In this document: in pieces, positions 8,592-19,343 of the stretch
Layout: each line of letters starts with the position of its first letter
Numbering within the stretch: position 1 is the first letter of the stretch
DNA from: a virus
Direction: 5' to 3' (one strand)
IMG/VR virus record: IMGVR_UViG_3300008122_000039
Span: 1-22,817 of that record
DNA: 22,817 nt
Position numbers and translations under genes: made by a program
Notes under the pieces: model-generated
Databases searched by the model: none
What the model was told of the DNA's origin: nothing
Seen by the model: the letters and a program-made list of their open reading frames with translations, nothing else

Positions 8592-8921
8592 ATGAAAGAA
8601 GTTAAAGGCGATATATACGAAGTTTATGAAGTTACATATAAAGGAAAATGTGTATATATTGGAAGTGGCGAAGGTGCAGTAGGCAATAAACCAGCAAGAC
8701 ATGAACATGTAAAATCTGGCAAATCTAGTAACGCAAAATTAAATGAACTATTTTTTAAAGATGCTGAAAATGTAAAAGTTATTGTTTTGCGTGATAACTT
8801 ATCTAAAGAAGATTCGCTTGAATTAGAAAGAGATTTTATTATGGCGAGTGAACCTAAATTTAATATCCAGCATAATCAAAAGAATCATAAAGTTAAAAAA
8901 TTTAGAAAATATACGATCTAA
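8592..8921 (+). CDS. Small free-standing GIY-YIG nuclease
   Basis: The 109-aa protein is a nearly bare GIY-YIG domain: YEV (12-14), KGKCVYIGSG (17-26), Arg/His in KPARHEHV (R36, H37), a Gly-rich turn KSGKSSNAKLNE, the catalytic-type Glu in SLELERDFI (E79), and a closing PKFNIQ (N91). Proteins like this in phages are Seg-type homing nucleases or stand-alone nucleases of unknown target. There is no recognisable DNA-binding module after the domain except a basic tail (KKFRKYTI). The ribosome binding site is weak. It is a one-gene rightward insert within a leftward region and ends at a bidirectional terminator, as expected of a mobile gene. Confidence 0.8.
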   Translation: MKEVKGDIYEVYEVTYKGKCVYIGSGEGAVGNKPARHEHVKSGKSSNAKLNELFFKDAENVKVIVLRDNLSKEDSLELERDFIMASEPKFNIQHNQKNHKVKKFRKYTI

Positions 8922-9863: not shown

Positions 9864-10538
9864 TTATTCAAATAATATAGACTCATAATGGCTGATCATA
9901 TTTCGTAAATTAGATTCCGCTCGAGATTGAAACTTATTGTAAAAATAATCGGTCACAAATATGCGTTCACTATAAAAGTGTTTTAATACTTCACATCGGC
10001 GACTCGCATATTCTTTTAATGGATTATCAGCATCCATATTTAAAAGTGGTGTATATTCATATAAGATCATATGATCATAATTTAAAAATCTGCGTGAATG
10101 TTTTCCAAAGATAGAAAGGTCAATATCGCGTATAATATTTGAATCATTACATTCAGATATAGGATGAGTTTTAGTATCAATAATATATGCATAAACTAAA
10201 TTTGCGTTAATACAATCTAAGTATTGATAATGGTGCATCATTAATTGTGCACTTTGTTCTTCATTATCTTGCGATGCTGGATCATAAACGGCATCATGAA
10301 ATAAGATAGCAAATAGCACATTTAAACGATGATTACATAAATGTTCAGTATCTAAAAATAACTCTAAACATTCAATTAAATGCTCAAGTGTATGATAAAA
10401 TCGGTGACCTGTGCAATAGGATGTTTCAATTAGATTATATAATTTATCAATCTCTGTTTGATTCATATAGTCTAATAATTGACATTTTTTTACTACTTTT
10501 TTCCATATATTCTTAAAACGAATTTTATAGTTAGGCAT
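9864..10538 (-). CDS. HD-superfamily metal-dependent phosphohydrolase (COG4339-like)
   Basis: The 224-aa protein has HRFYHTLEHLIECLELF (H49, H53), then ILFHDAVYDPASQDNEEQSA (H81-D82 with the D-N-E-E-x-S-A extension), IIDTKTHP (H125) and RDIDLSIFG (D138 or D140). This matches the predicted HD phosphohydrolase group that includes COG4339. The conserved His and Asp residues should hold one or two metal ions. The substrate is unknown; nucleotides or signalling nucleotides are typical for HD enzymes. The start overlaps the previous gene by eight bases. It is the last gene of the three-gene unit from 11870. Confidence 0.82.
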   Translation of the reverse strand: MPNYKIRFKNIWKKVVKKCQLLDYMNQTEIDKLYNLIETSYCTGHRFYHTLEHLIECLELFLDTEHLCNHRLNVLFAILFHDAVYDPASQDNEEQSAQLMMHHYQYLDCINANLVYAYIIDTKTHPISECNDSNIIRDIDLSIFGKHSRRFLNYDHMILYEYTPLLNMDADNPLKEYASRRCEVLKHFYSERIFVTDYFYNKFQSRAESNLRNMISHYESILFE

Positions 10539-11349
10539 TTTTTAATTCATCCTGAGCGATACGTTCCAGCTCATCGTTATAGCGCTTTAAAGCCTCATCA
10601 CGACGTTGCTCAATTCTTTTTTGATTATATGCAATATGATAATCAACCAGTTCAGCTGGAACATCAATATTAAATGTTTTAAAATTCTTAATAATTGATT
10701 CAACATTATATGATTGAGACATTGTATGGCGAGCGTGTTCCATTGCCCATTCTGCGGCTTGATTAAGATCAGCTGTAAATCGATATCGGGTGACACCACC
10801 AGAACCATCGCTATAATAACTAATATTATATGCAAGATTACCGTCGGATCTACCAATTAAGCTAAGTAATTTAATACTTTCAAATTGTTTAAAATAATAT
10901 TTATTTTCATATGATGTAATAGCATCCATAAAATGACTAATAAGACCATATTCATCTACTGCATATTTTGCTTGCCCTGTAAAAATATCACAAAAATGAT
11001 TAAAATCAAAGTTAGTCAATGATTTTAAAATACAATTAGATTGTTTGGCAAGCTCTGAAATTGCTTTTAATTCTTCTTTTTTTAGATCATGTTGATATTC
11101 TAGCTGATCAATCTTAGTTTTTAAGATTCTATGTTGATCAGCTACTTCATCATATTGCTTTTGTGCCCATGTTTTTACTGGAACGTCTAATAAACAAATA
11201 GAACGTTCCACAAAATTTTGACCTGCAGTATGTTCAATACCGTTATCGTCCACATACACTTCTTGTACAATGTATTCGTCGTCATTTAATTTAGTAACGA
11301 TATTAACCTTTTTACCAGATGTAGTATATTTTTGAACTGCTTTTGTCAT
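10531..11349 (-). CDS. Unknown coiled-coil protein, 272 aa
   Basis: ATG 11347-11349 (MTKAVQKYTTSGKKV) is chosen; an in-frame TTG at 11362 lies inside the previous gene's end. GGGA about ten bases upstream, formed by that gene's last codons, is a likely ribosome binding site. Residues about 65-110 form a heptad-rich coiled coil (QHRILKTKIDQLEYQHDLKKE), and the C-terminus is another charged helix (RIEQRRDEALKRYNDELERI). No domain is recognised. Early expression is inferred from the promoter at 11901. Confidence 0.75.
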   Translation of the reverse strand: MTKAVQKYTTSGKKVNIVTKLNDDEYIVQEVYVDDNGIEHTAGQNFVERSICLLDVPVKTWAQKQYDEVADQHRILKTKIDQLEYQHDLKKEELKAISELAKQSNCILKSLTNFDFNHFCDIFTGQAKYAVDEYGLISHFMDAITSYENKYYFKQFESIKLLSLIGRSDGNLAYNISYYSDGSGGVTRYRFTADLNQAAEWAMEHARHTMSQSYNVESIIKNFKTFNIDVPAELVDYHIAYNQKRIEQRRDEALKRYNDELERIAQDELKNA

Positions 11350-11354
11350 ATTAT

Positions 11355-11870
11355 TTATTCCCAATCCATAACTTCATATGGTTTAATTAAACCGTTATAT
11401 ACTTTATCGTCAATACATATTGTAAAATTACTATAAATATCAACTGCAAACGCTTTTTCACCAAGAATATCCAAAACTGTTAATTTTGGATTAAGCGATG
11501 TAAAACTTAACAACTCTGCGTTAAGGTTATTTTTCAAAAATTTACTAAATTGTTCCTCTGTCGGCATTTCTTTAAATACGCCGAGAGTTTCATCTTCATA
11601 TTCATCATCCGAACTCTTTGAAGATTCAAATAATGTAATTTCAATATAATCATCAACATTGTCAACGAGATGATTTACATCTGTACTATATCCCCAATAT
11701 TCTAATTCAATATGGTCAAGCGTTTCCAGACCAATAATTTTATTTTCTGGATTAAGATACGCCAGATGGCTATCATAAGTTGTATCAGACTCGTTATGTT
11801 TATAAAAAATATAAAAGAATTTGCCGATCTCAGGGCGTTGACCATCTTTAAAAGAATAAATAGTGCTCAT
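11355..11870 (-). CDS. Unknown acidic protein, 171 aa
   Basis: First gene of a three-gene leftward unit. It is strongly acidic, with an SSKSSDDEYEDE run near the middle. The segment after it, EMPTEEQFSKFLKNNL, resembles KLPTREEFSAYMYNEY in the gene at 12388, each followed by a short beta-strand region, so the two may be distant paralogues. The leader from the promoter at 11901 is about 25 bases, with a weak GAG ribosome binding site. No function can be given. Confidence 0.75.
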   Translation of the reverse strand: MSTIYSFKDGQRPEIGKFFYIFYKHNESDTTYDSHLAYLNPENKIIGLETLDHIELEYWGYSTDVNHLVDNVDDYIEITLFESSKSSDDEYEDETLGVFKEMPTEEQFSKFLKNNLNAELLSFTSLNPKLTVLDILGEKAFAVDIYSNFTICIDDKVYNGLIKPYEVMDWE

Positions 11871-11900
11871 ACAGATGTACTCGATTAAGTTTATAGCTTA

Positions 11901-11929
11901 ATTATACAGCCCTAAATTATATTTGTATA
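11901..11929 (-). promoter_or_regulatory. Early-type promoter for the 11355-11870 / HD operon
   Basis: Minus strand TATACA (11924-11929), 17-bp spacer AATATAATTTAGGGCTG, perfect TATAAT (11901-11906). The -35 box is inside an 18-bp palindrome. Confidence 0.72.
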
Positions 11930-11937
11930 TACAAATA
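11920..11937. repeat. 18-bp perfect palindrome over the -35 box
   Basis: Positions 11920-11937 read the same on both strands (core TTTGTATATACAAA). The same core lies in the 26-bp palindrome at 20197-20222. It may be an operator or activator site. Confidence 0.7.
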
Positions 11938-11938
11938 A

Positions 11939-12325
11939 TTATTTTTTTGGAAAATATTTTTCCATTACTTTTCCAATTTGGTCGGCATTTTCTAAACATA
12001 ATACAGACATATCAGCAACCGAAATATTGTTAGATGTATTCAATGCCGAACTTTTAATCCCAGTAACTGTAATATTAAAGGTTGAATATGAATTAGCAAC
12101 AACACATTCTACTTTTTTAATAGCAAAAATATATTTGTATTGCGAAAGATTTACTTGCGCAATTAAGTTTGTATTGTATGTATCAGTTACAGCATTAATT
12201 ACTTTGCCGTCATGATTGATATGCTTAATAGCAAGTAATTCAATACCAGCATCTTTAAAAAATTGTTCGTTAGGTAAATCATCAATAAAACAACGACTCG
12301 CAAAATTAGTATATGTATCTAACAT
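11939..12325 (-). CDS. Unknown protein, 128 aa
   Basis: ATG 12323-12325 has a strong GAGG ribosome binding site about nine bases upstream. The protein is a mix of short strands and helices with no membrane segment; it ends in ENADQIGKVMEKYFPKK. It lies between the terminator at 12364 and the palindromic promoter at 11901, so it appears to be its own transcription unit. I see no clear early-type promoter in the 38-base gap before it, only an AGTAAATA box that is a poor late-promoter match. No family is recognised. Confidence 0.72.
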   Translation of the reverse strand: MLDTYTNFASRCFIDDLPNEQFFKDAGIELLAIKHINHDGKVINAVTDTYNTNLIAQVNLSQYKYIFAIKKVECVVANSYSTFNITVTGIKSSALNTSNNISVADMSVLCLENADQIGKVMEKYFPKK

Positions 12326-12363
12326 AAGTTTTTCCTCATTTAAATATTTACTTATGATAAAAA

Positions 12364-12385
12364 TAAAGGACCATATGGCCCTTTA
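12364..12385 (-). terminator. Intrinsic terminator, AAAGGACC type
   Basis: A 10-bp stem with one mismatch, centred on CCATATGG, is followed on the minus strand by TTTATTTTTAT. It lies just after the stop of the gene at 12388. Confidence 0.6.
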
Positions 12386-12750: not shown

Positions 12751-13401
12751 TTACGACAGCTTCGACCAATACCTTGTACAATTTTTTTGATGGTCATAAA
12801 CTGCTTTTGATAAAGTCTCACCAACAGCGAATGAGGGCGTTAACATCAATCCTTTATATCCGTCGTCATTTGCATTAGAAACAACCTCGCGTACAACATC
12901 TTGTAGATATTGAATGGTATCTGGCTCTTTCATTGTATAATAACTTAATTTTTTATTACCACAGAAAATAATTTGTTTATTCTCTGGATCATATACCGGG
13001 TCCAAACCCACAAAAGCAGTTTCACCTTTATCCAATTCCATAGTGATTCGCATAAAATCAGGTGAAATAGTAGCGGACATAAACAAATTATAATCAGTCA
13101 TAATCTTGTTAGACATATTACCAACAAAGATAGGCTTAATCGTAATTTTTGTTTCTTGCTCATTATATTCGAATGAATGATCAAACTTATAAAGGAATAA
13201 GTCATTAATTCGAGTAGCATGACCTTGATATTTTTTAGCAATACGTTTTAATTTTACAAATTCTTCAATATCAGCAGCGTTTGATTTTTCAACAAATACT
13301 TCAGCGATAGCTTCAAATGCAGTTTTTAATTGACGTAGTGGTTGAACATAATTAGATTGATTAAGCTCTTCACGTAATAGCTGATTACGTACATCATCCA
13401 T
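12751..13401 (-). CDS. Helicase middle fragment (SAT motif)
   Basis: This frame is open from about 13439; family-like sequence (LTLRDTIDVMDDVRNQLL) begins upstream of the ATG at 13399-13401, so that ATG is probably not a true start, and it has no ribosome binding site. It includes the arch-like helical region and FMSATISPDFMRI. The last residues after DHQ (KNCTRYWSKLS) come from reading past an A7 run in the wrong frame. Confidence 0.55.
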   Translation of the reverse strand: MDDVRNQLLREELNQSNYVQPLRQLKTAFEAIAEVFVEKSNAADIEEFVKLKRIAKKYQGHATRINDLFLYKFDHSFEYNEQETKITIKPIFVGNMSNKIMTDYNLFMSATISPDFMRITMELDKGETAFVGLDPVYDPENKQIIFCGNKKLSYYTMKEPDTIQYLQDVVREVVSNANDDGYKGLMLTPSFAVGETLSKAVYDHQKNCTRYWSKLS

Positions 13402-13904
13402 TACATCAATGGTATCACGTAAAGTAAGCGGCGAAGATTACAATATTTCTCTTGTTCCGCTTTATCAGCTTTACTTTTAACACAATCTTCACCGGTAAAC
13501 TTCTTATCTTTTTCTAAAGACATTGAAGCCGCTAATTCACATTTATAATTACCAGCACCAATAATTTGATGGAATTCATCAGACTCAAAGTCTTTAAATG
13601 TTTCGCCATATTGTTTAACAAGTGAATTACTATGCACCACAATCATTGCAGGTTTAATATCATCGTCTTCAGCTAATTCATTTTCAAAACGATTTTTAAA
13701 AACTTTTGCTACAACAGCCCCAATAATGGATTTCCCCGTACCGGTATCTGCGCTAAGAATTACATTGCGCTTATTATTAATAAAGAATTCAGTAAGAACG
13801 CGATCAACAGCAACATCCTGTCCATTAATTGGAATCAGATTCATTTCTTTATATGCTGTGTCAATTTCTTCTTTAAAATTCATGTTATACATAACCGTGT
13901 CCAT
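13401..13904 (-). CDS. Helicase N-terminal fragment (Walker A, Fe-S-like cysteines)
   Basis: In-frame part of the disrupted helicase. The frame is open to 13967, but the promoter at 13920-13949 implies transcription from about 13913, so the start is ATG 13902-13904 or 13890-13892. The last residues after EQEKYCN (LRRLLYVIPLM) are out of register with the family and mark the break. If expressed alone it would bind ATP at most and could not act as a helicase. Confidence 0.6.
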   Translation of the reverse strand: MDTVMYNMNFKEEIDTAYKEMNLIPINGQDVAVDRVLTEFFINNKRNVILSADTGTGKSIIGAVVAKVFKNRFENELAEDDDIKPAMIVVHSNSLVKQYGETFKDFESDEFHQIIGAGNYKCELAASMSLEKDKKFTGEDCVKSKADKAEQEKYCNLRRLLYVIPLM

Positions 13905-13919
13905 TAAATGTAGGTGTCC

Positions 13920-13949
13920 ATTATAGGATACATAAATTATATTTGTACA
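13920..13949 (-). promoter_or_regulatory. Early-type promoter for the helicase unit
   Basis: Minus strand TGTACA (13944-13949), 18-bp spacer beginning AATATAATTTA, perfect TATAAT (13920-13925). It lies inside the nominal upstream extension of the helicase frame and so decides against a start at 13967. Confidence 0.65.
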
Positions 13950-13978
13950 ACAAAATAGCGCACGCACAAATATAATTT
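13934..13978. repeat. 13-bp inverted repeat in a divergent promoter region
   Basis: AAATTATATTTGT (13934-13946) is repeated exactly in inverted orientation as ACAAATATAATTT (13966-13978). The left copy is the spacer and -35 area of the helicase promoter; the right copy faces the gene at 14044. A similar head-to-head pair is at 8531-8556. Confidence 0.7.
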
Positions 13979-14606: not shown

Positions 14607-15075
14607 CTTTTAATACGCCTCTAATAGTACAGTCGCCTTCACTGTCATAGCTCATTGTATATAACCATTTATATACTGAATAATCAATTTTGTCACCATT
14701 TTTGTATCGACGAGATACGCATTCATATTGAATACCGTTCGCATAAAATACTGGGTACTTTACAAATTCTATTTGTAAATTTAATAATTCATCATACGAT
14801 GGTGGGTATATTGTAGATATTAATTGTTTAAAAGGGAGGAATGTATCATAGTTATTAATTCTTGCACCTGCAATAAAATTCATATATGTTGCAACTGTAA
14901 TTTTTACAGGGTCATATCTAATTAAATTATGAATTTCATCTAACGCTTTCAAAAAATCAACATTTTCAACTGTATGACCTAATGCTGAAATTTGATATTT
15001 ATCATCATTATTTGTAATAACAATATCTTTAACGTTATTATTTTTAAATAACACCGTTATGAATTCGTCGTTCAT
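14596..15075 (-). CDS. Unknown protein, 159 aa
   Basis: ATG 15073-15075 has GGAG eleven bases upstream, within the end of the preceding gene, which it overlaps by four bases. The sequence has a helical middle (FLKALDEIHNLIRYDP) and a Tyr-rich C-terminal beta region (YECVSRRYKNGDKIDYSVYK). No family is recognised. It is third in the thyA unit. Confidence 0.75.
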   Translation of the reverse strand: MNDEFITVLFKNNNVKDIVITNNDDKYQISALGHTVENVDFLKALDEIHNLIRYDPVKITVATYMNFIAGARINNYDTFLPFKQLISTIYPPSYDELLNLQIEFVKYPVFYANGIQYECVSRRYKNGDKIDYSVYKWLYTMSYDSEGDCTIRGVLKDGI

Positions 15076-15242
15076 TTATTTATATTCTCCAAAGAAATTA
15101 AAGTGTGTCGCTCATCTGAATCATCTTGCACCCATTCATTTTTTATCCAATAAAATAAAGCATTATCCCATACACAATATAATTGTTTTGTCGGATCAAA
15201 ATATGTTGCTTCTTCTGGTGCAAAGCTAATTAAATTACTCAT
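15072..15242 (-). CDS. Small unknown protein, 56 aa
   Basis: The start is ATG 15240-15242 (MSNLISFAPEEATYFDPTK), with AGG nine bases upstream; in-frame codons further upstream run through the terminator hairpin at 15255-15284 and are rejected. The protein is rich in aromatic residues (LYCVWDNALFYWIKNEWVQDD). Stop and next start overlap by four bases, which supports translation. No function is recognised. Confidence 0.65.
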   Translation of the reverse strand: MSNLISFAPEEATYFDPTKQLYCVWDNALFYWIKNEWVQDDSDERHTLISLENINK

Positions 15243-15245
15243 TAT

Positions 15246-15284
15246 AAAAAACCTAATTGGGTGATAATATGATATCACCCAATT
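15246..15284 (-). terminator. Hairpin terminator after thyA
   Basis: A 12-bp stem (15255-15266 with 15273-15284) with six-base loop, followed on the minus strand by AGG and T6. The AGG is also the ribosome binding site of the next gene, so termination is probably partial. Confidence 0.65.
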
Positions 15285-15287
15285 TTA

Positions 15288-16136
15288 TTAGACTGCCATA
15301 TCGGCTTTAATTGGATCGTGATGGTTATAATTATCTAATCTGAATTGATCAATTGTTGCTTTTTCAAAGTCTTCCAACGTTTGTAAAGCAGGATCAATCC
15401 ATAAAGTTGGTGGTGTCATAGGGGCGCGTTCAAGCTGCTGATATGCTTGATCAACATGGTTTTTATATACATGAGTATTACCAAAATGACAAGATAAATA
15501 GCGTGCTTTTTTACCAAGAATACGAGCAAGTATATGAGTCAACGCAGCATATGATGCAATATCAAATGGACAACCTAAAAATAAATCAACTGATCTCATT
15601 TTAAATAGCACATCAATATAATCGCCTTTAATATTAATCTGATACATATAATGACAAGGCGGCAAAGTCATCTTTTTAAGATCGCCTGGGTTCCAAGCTG
15701 AAATAATAAGACGGCGATTTGACGGGTCTTGCTGTGCAAGCGTTAGCATTTCTTTTAACTGATCAACACCATTAAAGTTACGCCATTGGCTACCGTAAAT
15801 TGGCCCCATTTCACCATCAGTATAACCTAAGTCTTTTGCTTGCTTGTTATAGTTCGCGTCCCAGATTGTTTTCTTTTCATCATTATAGCGATTTTCTTCA
15901 CCATGCAGAATAGCGCGCAGTTCATATAAGTTAGAAGAGCCGCGTATAAACCAAAGTAATTCAGAAATAACTCCTTTCCATGCTAATTTCTTAGTGGTAA
16001 CAGCAGGAAAACCATCACGTAAATCGAACTTAATATGTTCACCAAAAGTACAAACAGTGCCTACACCAGTACGTTCTGTATTATCATCTTCACCAGTTTC
16101 TAATACATGTTTCATTAAATTTAAATATTGTTTCAT
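15288..16136 (-). CDS. thyA: Thymidylate synthase family enzyme, possibly dCMP-specific (Asn to Asp)
   Basis: The 282-aa protein follows T4 Td: ERTGVGT (R22), IWDANYNKQAKDLGY (94-105 region), GPIYGSQWR, SNRR (R141, R142), the catalytic Cys161 in LPPCHYMYQ, RSVDLFLG (R181, D184) and GNTHVYKNH. These residues bind substrate and methylene-tetrahydrofolate. One key residue differs: the usual PFNIASYA reads PFDIASYA, with Asp192 (codon 15561-15563) in place of the Asn that selects dUMP (E. coli N177, L. casei N229). The same Asp is present in T4 dCMP hydroxymethylase, and N229D turns L. casei TS into a dCMP methylase. It may therefore make 5-methyl-dCMP. AAGGT precedes ATG 16136; the gene has no intron, unlike T4 td. 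Confidence 0.93.
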   Translation of the reverse strand: MKQYLNLMKHVLETGEDDNTERTGVGTVCTFGEHIKFDLRDGFPAVTTKKLAWKGVISELLWFIRGSSNLYELRAILHGEENRYNDEKKTIWDANYNKQAKDLGYTDGEMGPIYGSQWRNFNGVDQLKEMLTLAQQDPSNRRLIISAWNPGDLKKMTLPPCHYMYQINIKGDYIDVLFKMRSVDLFLGCPFDIASYAALTHILARILGKKARYLSCHFGNTHVYKNHVDQAYQQLERAPMTPPTLWIDPALQTLEDFEKATIDQFRLDNYNHHDPIKADMAV

Positions 16137-16159
16137 CGCATACCTTTGATATTTCTTAA

Positions 16160-16180
16160 GTACACACTATTTAGGTGTAC
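16160..16180 (-). promoter_or_regulatory. Hairpin in the long leader of thyA
   Basis: GTACAC (16160-16165) pairs with GTGTAC (16175-16180). It lies in a leader of about 116 bases, unusually long for this window, 24 bases before the thyA start. It may be a control element; no known riboswitch is recognised. Confidence 0.35.
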
Positions 16181-16258
16181 CGTTTGGACTATCAAATCTT
16201 TAAGGTATGTAGTAGCATATGGAGGGAATAAGTTTTAATATATAAAAGATTTTAAATG

Positions 16259-16287
16259 ATTATATATGTTTATGTATGTTTTGTAAA
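16259..16287 (-). promoter_or_regulatory. Strong early-type promoter for the thyA unit
   Basis: Minus strand TTTACA (16282-16287), 17-bp spacer, perfect TATAAT (16259-16264). Transcription would start near 16252. It begins right after the terminator of the preceding unit. Confidence 0.72.
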
Positions 16288-16297
16288 TAAATATAAT

Positions 16298-16329
16298 AAA
16301 AAAAGGACCCAATTAAGAGTCCTTTTTTT
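16298..16329 (-). terminator. Intrinsic terminator (GGAC type)
   Basis: A7-GGAC (16298-16308) pairs with GTCC-T7 (16319-16329) across a 10-base loop; T-runs occur on both strands. It ends the four-gene unit that starts at the promoter at 17955. Confidence 0.75.
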
Positions 16330-16341
16330 AATTATTAATGG

Positions 16342-16599
16342 TTACCAAGAATTATAATCCGTGATATCAGCAATTGGTTCATTATTAGCATTATCAAATA
16401 CAATATAAGATGTACCGATTCCACTACCATTATAAGCGCGGATTGTCAAGTCACCGTTAAGATAAACAGAATGATCACTTAAAAATTTTTGAAATAAAGA
16501 TAGCTCTTCAGCTTCTAATTGAAGAACTGGAATACCTTCTTCTTTTTTCCAGACGTCTTTTTTATCAGTAATTAGACTGTATGTTGTATTAGCATGCAT
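16342..16599 (-). CDS. Small unknown protein, 85 aa
   Basis: ATG 16597-16599 lies nine bases after the YqeY gene stop; GTGAG about nine bases upstream may serve as ribosome binding site. The protein has a helical middle (LEAEELSLFQKFLSDHS) and a C-terminal strand pair ending in DITDYNSW. It is the last gene of its unit. No family is recognised. Confidence 0.7.
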   Translation of the reverse strand: MHANTTYSLITDKKDVWKKEEGIPVLQLEAEELSLFQKFLSDHSVYLNGDLTIRAYNGSGIGTSYIVFDNANNEPIADITDYNSW

Positions 16600-16608
16600 T
16601 TTTTAAAC

Positions 16609-17031
16609 TCACTTATATTTTGATGATACATATTTAGCATCATAACGCTTAAAATAATTGTCTTTAAAATAAGACATAGCATCTTTAATAGACGCAAAAT
16701 TTTGTTCCGCACAAATAGAATCAATTTCTGCGTTAGTTAATTGTTTTGGCAAATATGATTCATAAATTTCAATTTCAGCCAATAATTTTGTGCGAGTGGC
16801 TTCAAAATCACCCGGCGCTTTTTCACAGTCATCAACCGATTTTTTAAGGTCTCGCACAAAGCTAGTTAAAAAAGCAATGATATTATCATCAGTTGGTAAT
16901 ACTGGCTTATCTAAACGAGCTTTAGTATCAAATGTACCAATAATATAACGCAATGAATTAACTTTTTGCTGATCTTTTAAACGCATAGCATCTTTCATAT
17001 CAACGATAATTTGTTCATGAATTGTTGTCAT
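16609..17031 (-). CDS. GatB/YqeY-like protein
   Basis: The 140-aa protein matches the YqeY pattern of helices: IIVDMKDAMRLKDQQKVNSLRYIIGTF, then a VLPTDDNIIAFLTSFVRDLKKSVDDCEKA segment, and IEIYESYLPKQLTNAEIDSIC, where YLPKQL is the family hallmark. YqeY resembles the tail domain of GatB, which binds tRNA in the amidotransferase; the role of free YqeY is not established. Phage copies are rare but known. A strong GGAG lies seven bases before ATG 17031. A shorter relative is directly upstream at 17066. Confidence 0.82.
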   Translation of the reverse strand: MTTIHEQIIVDMKDAMRLKDQQKVNSLRYIIGTFDTKARLDKPVLPTDDNIIAFLTSFVRDLKKSVDDCEKAPGDFEATRTKLLAEIEIYESYLPKQLTNAEIDSICAEQNFASIKDAMSYFKDNYFKRYDAKYVSSKYK

Positions 17032-17065
17032 CGTTATCTCCTACGATAATTATAAAGAACATATA

Positions 17066-17353
17066 TTATGCCACATTTTCTTTTATAATATACTGATTTA
17101 AAAAATTAATTTCTTTTTTAATTTGAATGGAATCATCAAAAATATCGTCTTCTTCCATTTCATCTAAATTTTGTTGTAAGTCATACATAAATGAAGTAAT
17201 AAAATTACTAACTAATACGTCATCATGTAAACGATCAGGATAACCTTGCTTAATATGTCCAATTATAAATTCCAATAATGGAACATATATATCATCTTTA
17301 CTTTCAATAAAGTCGTTTAATTTATTTTCTAAAACTTGTAGTAAAGTTGTCAT
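17066..17353 (-). CDS. Short YqeY-like paralogue
   Basis: This 95-aa protein aligns with the middle of the neighbour at 16609: LLEFIIGHIKQ with SLRYIIGTFDT, DDVLVSNFITSFMYDLQQNLDE with DDNIIAFLTSFVRDLKKSVDD, and EINFLNQYI with EIEIYESYL. It lacks the YLPKQL motif and everything after it. Tandem duplication followed by loss of the C-terminal part is the simplest reading. GGGA lies about eight bases upstream of ATG 17353, which follows the stop of the previous gene by one base. Confidence 0.65.
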   Translation of the reverse strand: MTTLLQVLENKLNDFIESKDDIYVPLLEFIIGHIKQGYPDRLHDDVLVSNFITSFMYDLQQNLDEMEEDDIFDDSIQIKKEINFLNQYIIKENVA

Positions 17354-17354
17354 A

Positions 17355-17921
17355 TTAGTTCCCTTTTAATAATGATTTAATATCGGCTTGAAATATTTTA
17401 CCATAAGCATGATATTCAATATACGGATAAAAGCTATATGATAAACTACAGCTTGCATCTGCAGTATAATCATCATCTTTTGAAAAGCTTAATTCTTCAT
17501 TATATGATGAATCATGATCATCAAAAAATGCATTCAGCTTTTTAATTAAATCGATTGCTTTAGCTTCATCACCTTCAACTATAATTGTACGAGTATCAGT
17601 TGTAGTACCACGACAATTTTCGCCATAAATTGAAAGTTTAAAATAACAATTTGGCTGTTGGTGATGTGGATAACATACATATTCAAGTTGATCACCTATT
17701 TTGGGATCAGCCGTCATTTTATATTTGATGCCATTTAAAGCAACTTCATATTGAACTTCTGTATTTTTTAATAAACTTAATTCCATACCCATACTAGTCA
17801 ATTGATTTAATTGGATATTAGTTATTTCTACAAATTTTTCTGCGACTTTTTCTGGCTCTAAAAAGTCATTAAATATGATTTCTTCGTCTGCCTTAATAAG
17901 CACTTTAACAGTTTTAATCAT
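17355..17921 (-). CDS. Unknown protein, 188 aa
   Basis: The frame extends to ATG 17952-17954, but the -10 box of the promoter ends at 17955, so that ATG would lie before or at the transcript start. ATG 17919-17921 (MIKTVKVLIKADEE) with GGA about ten bases upstream is used instead. The protein is a beta-rich and acidic sequence with an HHQQPNCYFKLSIYGENC segment and a Tyr-rich C-terminus (YSFYPYIEYHAYGK). It is the first gene of the YqeY unit. No family is recognised. Confidence 0.72.
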   Translation of the reverse strand: MIKTVKVLIKADEEIIFNDFLEPEKVAEKFVEITNIQLNQLTSMGMELSLLKNTEVQYEVALNGIKYKMTADPKIGDQLEYVCYPHHQQPNCYFKLSIYGENCRGTTTDTRTIIVEGDEAKAIDLIKKLNAFFDDHDSSYNEELSFSKDDDYTADASCSLSYSFYPYIEYHAYGKIFQADIKSLLKGN

Positions 17922-18836: not shown

Positions 18837-19343
18837 TTATTTAGCAACTTTTTCATATTCAGTGAATTTATATTGGCAATCATTTTCCATAAATATTTCA
18901 CTATTTTTAACCAATTTAAAGTAATCCGGTATTTCATAGGTAGCATCGCCTTCAACTTCAATATCGACTTCTGTCACTAATAAACGATGCGATACTTCCA
19001 TACTTAAACGATAAATTTCGGCGCCACCAATAATAAAAATTCGATTCTTATTAGTCAAATGTGTATTAATTTTAGCCATGGCAATAGCCGTATCAATATC
19101 ACGTGCATAGATAACGCCATCTTCTACACGGGTAATACCACTACGAGACAATACAATAAATTTACGACCTTTTAAATGTTTGATGGTTTCATAAGTTTTA
19201 CGTCCAACAATACAAATATGATTTAGCGTATTTTCTTTAAAATACTGTAGATCACCAGTAATCTTCCACGGAATTTCATCACCATTTCCAATTACATTAT
19301 TACTACTACGTGCTACAATTTGTACAACTTCTATATTTGACAT
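18837..19343 (-). CDS. folA: Dihydrofolate reductase
   Basis: The 168-aa protein has all main DHFR elements: IVARSSNNVIGNGDEIPWK (Met20-loop region), TGDLQYFKENT with the catalytic acid D31, VGRKTYETI (46-54, NADPH binding), KFIVLSRS and FIIGGAEIYR (103-112). It reduces dihydrofolate to tetrahydrofolate, the T4 frd function. A methylating thymidylate-synthase-type enzyme releases dihydrofolate, so this enzyme would support the thyA homologue at 15288 even if that works on dCMP. GGAG precedes ATG 19343. A weak promoter (TTTATA, 16 bp, TATGAT) lies in the 87-base gap upstream. Confidence 0.96.
   Translation of the reverse strand: MSNIEVVQIVARSSNNVIGNGDEIPWKITGDLQYFKENTLNHICIVGRKTYETIKHLKGRKFIVLSRSGITRVEDGVIYARDIDTAIAMAKINTHLTNKNRIFIIGGAEIYRLSMEVSHRLLVTEVDIEVEGDATYEIPDYFKLVKNSEIFMENDCQYKFTEYEKVAK

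Follow-up and report, generated by a model that had tools for sequence, protein, structure and literature searches.

The window, by which we mean the whole stretch of 22,817 nucleotides that was analysed, carries on its minus strand at positions 15288–16136 a gene of the thymidylate synthase (TS) superfamily, recognized from its open reading frame and translation and matching PF00303 at 4e-86, whose 282-residue product is predicted to be a dCMP C5-methyltransferase. The top PDB match is T4 Td (1tis, 2.5e-83), which is the closest solved structure and of the same lineage, and the nearest named phages are the Pseudomonas phages Astolliot and Milchi (62–63 % identity), both of which have Asn at the position equivalent to Asn177 of Escherichia coli ThyA. 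Alignment with the E. coli enzyme places Cys161 (codon 15654–15656), the catalytic nucleophile, at Cys146, Arg22, Arg141, Arg142 and Arg181 at Arg21, Arg126, Arg127 and Arg166, and Trp92, Tyr114, His222 and Tyr224 at Trp80, Tyr94, His207 and Tyr209; the fold, the catalytic cysteine, the phosphate-binding arginine set and the folate-site residues are all those of a TS. The statement of an earlier note on this DNA that Cys161, the arginines and the folate-site tryptophan are kept is borne out by this alignment, with the nuance that Trp83 is replaced by Asn95, as it is in T4 Td and other phages. The C-terminal tail, IKADMAV (15291–15311), is TS-like, and Leu158 (codon 15663–15665), three residues before the cysteine, is the residue found in TSs, as opposed to Asp145 of the T4 hydroxymethylase (PMC6400193).

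The protein departs from a canonical dUMP enzyme at the residue that determines pyrimidine specificity, E. coli Asn177. At positions 15561–15563 the plus strand reads ATC and the minus strand GAT, which is codon 192 and encodes Asp within the sequence LPPCHYMYQINIKGDYIDVLFKMRSVDLFLGCPFDIASYA, just as the earlier note had claimed. Residue 177 sets the choice between dUMP and dCMP, and an Asn-to-Asp change yields a dCMP methylase (PMC8670742); in the T4 dCMP hydroxymethylase the equivalent residue, Asp179, recognizes cytosine and protonates N3 (PMC6400193). TSs encoded on viral contigs with modified cytosine are marked by Asp177, and on those contigs residue 147 also differs from His (PMC8670742), whereas in the window TS position 147 is an unaltered His. 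A second replacement, overlooked by the earlier note, is Met180 (codon 15597–15599) in place of E. coli Gln165; T4 Td has Gln165 as well as Asn177. The neighbouring dihydrofolate reductase (DHFR) gene that had been reported does lie nearby, on the minus strand at 18837–19343 (168 aa, PF00186 4.8e-37).

No near DNA match to the window was found in the phage collection. IMG/VR supplied a relative, the viral contig G001 (3300011242_000001; 380,997 bp), whose DNA is 97–98.7 % identical to the window across the roughly three-quarters of it spanned by the fetched locus. Its TS is 99 % identical to that of the window and has Asp at the same place; the two genes differ by nine synonymous and two non-synonymous codon changes, none at Asp192, and because this independent relative shares the residue despite those differences we regard the Asp as real and conserved.

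Asp at position 177 is no chance event, since a large number of viral TSs only remotely related to one another have it, frequently in combination with Met165. DNA-pattern scans of IMG/VR gathered TSs of both the Asp and the Asn type; in the non-redundant set, 24 of the 37 Asp proteins have Met at position 165, against 2 of the 90 with Asn. When a 92-row alignment of viral TSs was examined, column 165 had the strongest association with column 177 (Met in 18/25 Asp rows versus 2/67 Asn rows, P=9e-12; runner-up column, P=1.4e-8), these P values being ones that ignore shared ancestry. Asp177 arose several times: when only supported branches of the tree are counted, no fewer than five changes are required. 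In independent pairs across such branches Met changed in the same direction in an average of 3.2 out of 5 and in the opposite direction in 0.1, the pairs being too few for significance. Met165 is shared by the window TS, phages 133 and ZZ1 and T4 gp42, in which the motif NMRSND...ND has Met and Asp at the same places, and Phe163 and an FGN motif are likewise common to the TSs of the window, 133 and ZZ1. A single origin of Asp in a clade of these last three was rejected (AU test, P=0.006, motif columns excluded), and for this reason the shared motif set looks convergent or locally exchanged; local gene conversion of a short motif may have taken place among them. Residue 165 offers a second marker by which converted TSs of this kind may be recognized. 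Another group of viral TSs, set apart on long branches and found at nine loci, combines Asp177 with Gln165 (QRSADAFLGLPFDIASY) and is possibly a different solution to the use of dCMP.

The gene content that surrounds this enzyme is known largely from G001, the window itself being 22.8 kb; DenB, the deaminase and the PRA-PH-type pyrophosphohydrolase are all drawn from that relative, which is 97–99 % identical. G001 encodes DHFR, NrdA and NrdB, a DenB with 45 % identity to that of T4 (8.7e-44; PHROG DenB, 6.3e-56), and a PRA-PH-type pyrophosphohydrolase (110673–111482; PF01503 6e-6, PHROG 671 1.4e-14) whose gene directly precedes that of a dCMP deaminase (g173, 111596–112711; PF00383 and PF14437). 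MazG (PF03819) gave only a weak match in G001, and this pointed to the PRA-PH gene. These pyrophosphohydrolase and deaminase families have been reported alongside TS on contigs with modified cytosine (PMC8670742), and G001 unites an Asp-type TS with PF01503, PF00383 and PF14437 in one genome, as do the contigs identified by MetaGPA in that study, although the carbamoyltransferase was not found here. Searches of G001 found no homologues of gp42, the gp56 dCTPase, Alc, the α- or β-glucosyltransferase, DenA or the gp1 dNMP kinase. The earlier note had proposed looking for a dCTPase, a 5-methyl-dCMP kinase and a second thymidylate synthase: the PRA-PH protein is a plausible candidate for the first, no gp1-type kinase was found for the second, and for the third G001 has a single PF00303 gene, with no ThyX found in a search of the genome. 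Since gp56, Alc and gp1 homologues are lacking, complete replacement of cytosine in this phage would rest on the putative PRA-PH dCTPase and on some other kinase or one supplied by the host.

Further evidence comes from the distribution of DenB, the nuclease with which T4 destroys cytosine-containing DNA (PMC8056088; PMC12115623); given this activity, a phage that bears DenB should have modified cytosine in its own DNA. We compared DenB, gp42 and residue 177 in 24 T4-type phage records picked for spread. Where both DenB and gp42 are present the TS has Asn (11/11: T4, Acj9, AbTZA1, Merlin, JY1, PEi26, LC53, IsaacDaniel, Berthold, WG01 and SonariX); where DenB is present and gp42 absent it has Asp in all seven records, from four lineages (VR20, VR25, VR26, YenM_P8, ZZ1, 133 and G001); and where both are absent it again has Asn (6/6: RB43, RB49, Aeh1, KVP40, Astolliot and Milchi). 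Among the gp42-negative phages the association gave P=5.8e-4 by record and P=0.008 by lineage in a Fisher test. YenM_P8 was a partial prediction, in that it was chosen for its kinship with VR26 and its residue was read only after the absence of gp42 and the presence of DenB were known. An extra PF00303 match in Aeh1, weak and under the cut-off, was left out of the gp42 count. For phage 133 our search found no gp42 homologue, which agrees with one account (PMC8056088) and conflicts with another that lists gene 42 for this phage (PMC2993671). DLP4, which is not a T4-type phage, has an Asp-type TS without DenB.

We propose, with a probability of roughly 0.77 and on comparative evidence, that the window gene is a TS of the T4 Td lineage that has become a dCMP C5-methyltransferase, and that the resulting 5-methyl-dCMP is used in phage DNA. 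The covariation at position 165, the joint pattern of DenB, gp42 and TS residue, and the company of PRA-PH, deaminase and DHFR genes with neither a second TS nor ThyX lend support to the suggestion, already made in the earlier note, of a switch to dCMP and a genome with modified cytosine; the modification may act against host restriction. In the mechanism that we envisage, Asp192 would pair with N3 of cytosine and protonate it, Cys161 would attack C6, methylene-tetrahydrofolate would provide the carbon, and hydride transfer beneath the retained C-terminal tail would give 5-methyl-dCMP and dihydrofolate, the latter to be recycled by the phage DHFR. The 5-methyl-dCMP would then be phosphorylated and replace dCMP in the phage DNA, while the PRA-PH-type pyrophosphohydrolase probably removes dCTP and DenB would destroy the cytosine-containing DNA of the host and spare that of the phage. 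If its only TS does not act on dUMP, the phage must obtain dTMP from the host or by deamination of 5-methyl-dC nucleotides, and, with no second thymidylate synthase to rely on, it probably also uses the deaminase encoded beside PRA-PH to convert 5-methyl-dC nucleotides to dT nucleotides. Enzymes of this type are able to do so: dCMP deaminases act on 5-methyl-dCMP, and that of phage XP-12 converts 5-methyl-dCTP to dTTP (PMC12088426).

The same observations would suit a scheme in which 5-methyl-dCMP is only a stepping stone to thymidylate by way of dCMP deaminase and the phage DNA contains ordinary cytosine, for G001 keeps the deaminase with no other TS and no ThyX, and both deaminase activities just described are of the kind required. 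We nevertheless judge it unlikely. G001 retains DenB, an attacker of cytosine DNA, and in the phages compared DenB is tied either to gp42 or to an Asp-type TS. Moreover, coliphage VR7, whose Td reads PFDIGSYG and thus has Asp, is described in the available text of PMC6326788 as having unglycosylated DNA with modified cytosines; that text does not name the base, but the report constitutes independent wet-laboratory support from a phage with an Asp-type TS. Since the two uses of 5-methyl-dCMP are compatible, the thymidylate route is likelier to be an addition to cytosine methylation than an alternative to it.

It is somewhat less probable still that the enzyme is a dCMP hydroxymethylase like T4 gp42 and gives rise to 5-hydroxymethylcytosine DNA. 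T4 gp42 belongs to the same superfamily, places Asp and Met as the window TS does, shares its Met-Arg-Ser motif and is found in phages that carry DenB. Hydroxymethylases have, however, a signature of Asp or Glu three residues before the cysteine, Ser or Thr two residues before the tyrosine and a missing C-terminal tail, the part of TS that closes over the folate and that gp42 lacks (PMC6400193). Every element of that signature is absent from the window TS, which has Leu158 and, before Tyr114, Pro112 where gp42 has Asp145 and Ser94, and which keeps the tail. It is on the absence of these residues and the retention of the tail that we base the prediction of 5-methyl-dCMP as product; a phage-encoded DHFR also favours methylation, since this enzyme is needed when dihydrofolate is released, and homologues of glucosyltransferase and carbamoyltransferase, as of gp42, were not found in G001. 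The earlier note had left room for either a methyl or a hydroxymethyl product; the former is now favoured and the latter disfavoured. In the CMP hydroxymethylases MilA and BcmA, Lys substitutes for Arg126 and Ala for Ser167 (PMC5175136), and here too the window TS differs, with Arg141 and Ser182.

That the enzyme has stayed an ordinary TS, acting on dUMP in spite of its Asp, is an equally poor prospect. The 62.8 % identity to Asn-type phage TSs and the conservation of the other catalytic residues would be expected of such an enzyme, but the Asn-to-Asp change is a reported specificity switch (PMC8670742), Met165 changes along with Asp177, and residue 177 follows DenB and gp42 status in 24/24 T4-type records. 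That Asp192 is a sequencing error or a neutral substitution may be dismissed almost outright: GAT and AAT differ by one base, but the independently assembled G001 contig again has GAT, not AAT, at codon 192, and the TSs of ZZ1, 133 and Gaprivervirus also have Asp.

A TS-type dCMP methylase is an enzyme of a kind already known, and what is of interest in the present case is that td would have been reused convergently and that an open question becomes directly testable. The DNA of Xanthomonas phage Xp12 contains 5-methylcytosine (PMC7653180), and DLP4, which we examined as a relative standing in for Xp12, resembles the phage described here in encoding an Asp177 TS, a dCMP deaminase, DHFR and a nucleotide pyrophosphohydrolase. 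These genes lie side by side in DLP4, whereas in G001 they are scattered; the DLP4 TS has the longest branch, Leu165, Pro147 and no aligned C-terminal tail, and DLP4 lacks the DenB that G001 carries. Phages 133, ZZ1 and the Gaprivervirus phages VR20, VR25 and VR26 are closer parallels, with Asp177, DenB and no gp42. The first two also have the Met165, Phe163 and FGN motif of the window TS, whereas Gaprivervirus keeps Gln165, and all of them retain the gp56 dCTPase and Alc that G001 lacks.

It has been noted that Gaprivervirus, ZZ1 and 133 encode DenB, Alc and dCTPase, which would be of use only to a phage whose cytosine is modified, but none of the enzymes known to make such a base (PMC8056088), and in 2025 Gaprivervirus was reported to be unable to replicate without a non-canonical base whose identity is unknown (PMC12115623). 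The genes annotated only as thymidylate synthase or td in VR7, VR20, VR25, VR26, YenM_P8, ZZ1 and 133 all encode Asp177, and to judge from this residue their products are also candidate dCMP methylases; the residue flagged in the window thus names, for Gaprivervirus, ZZ1 and 133, a candidate enzyme for that question. A search of the available literature found no paper that ties an Asp177 td to the missing base of these phages. The DNA of ZZ1 is open to HindIII, EcoRI and EcoRV (PMC3438129), so modification may not protect its cytosine completely from these three. It is tempting to speculate, at what we would call even odds, that T4-type phages have repeatedly converted their own td, marked by Asp177 and in many cases by Met165 as well, to a dCMP methylase that replaces gp42, with loss of the direct step from dUMP to dTMP, so that one enzyme together with dCMP deaminase would make both 5-methylcytosine and thymine; this would supply the base of Gaprivervirus, ZZ1, 133 and G001. 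Some genes annotated as thymidylate synthase may accordingly not make thymidylate, a point that bears on the metabolic annotation of phages.

Several other genes were observed in passing. The NrdA large subunit of G001 (114935–117841; 14935–17838 of the fetched locus) contains an intein splicing domain (PF14890, 1.6e-12). The best PHROG match of an adenylosuccinate synthetase-like gene (71186–72379; 11186–12379 of its locus) is a PurZ-type family, and this PurA-like gene raised the idea of a 2-aminoadenine genome, which was rejected, the GDEGKG motif being kept and the score far below the PurZ cut-off. Homology to the T4 gp43-type DNA polymerase is split over two G001 genes about 10 kb apart (61528–62790, which uvsX adjoins, and 73273–75207), an arrangement that recalls 43A/43B of phage 133. 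A helicase that is intact in G001 (590 aa, 217079–218851) is split in the window (12751–13967, minus strand), where two internal stretches of about 220–235 bp present in G001 are missing, by real loss or by assembly collapse. In the same gene run as the window TS and DHFR lies a small protein gene (16609–17031, minus strand) that matches PHROG 1460, named tRNA amidotransferase, at 6.8e-23. Elsewhere on the minus strand, 9864–10538 has a phosphohydrolase PHROG match (1.1e-20) and no Pfam match, and 1024–1686 a homing-endonuclease PHROG match (6.5e-13) and a better one named NAD synthetase; on the plus strand, the product of 8592–8921 resembles a GIY-YIG nuclease, by eye only.
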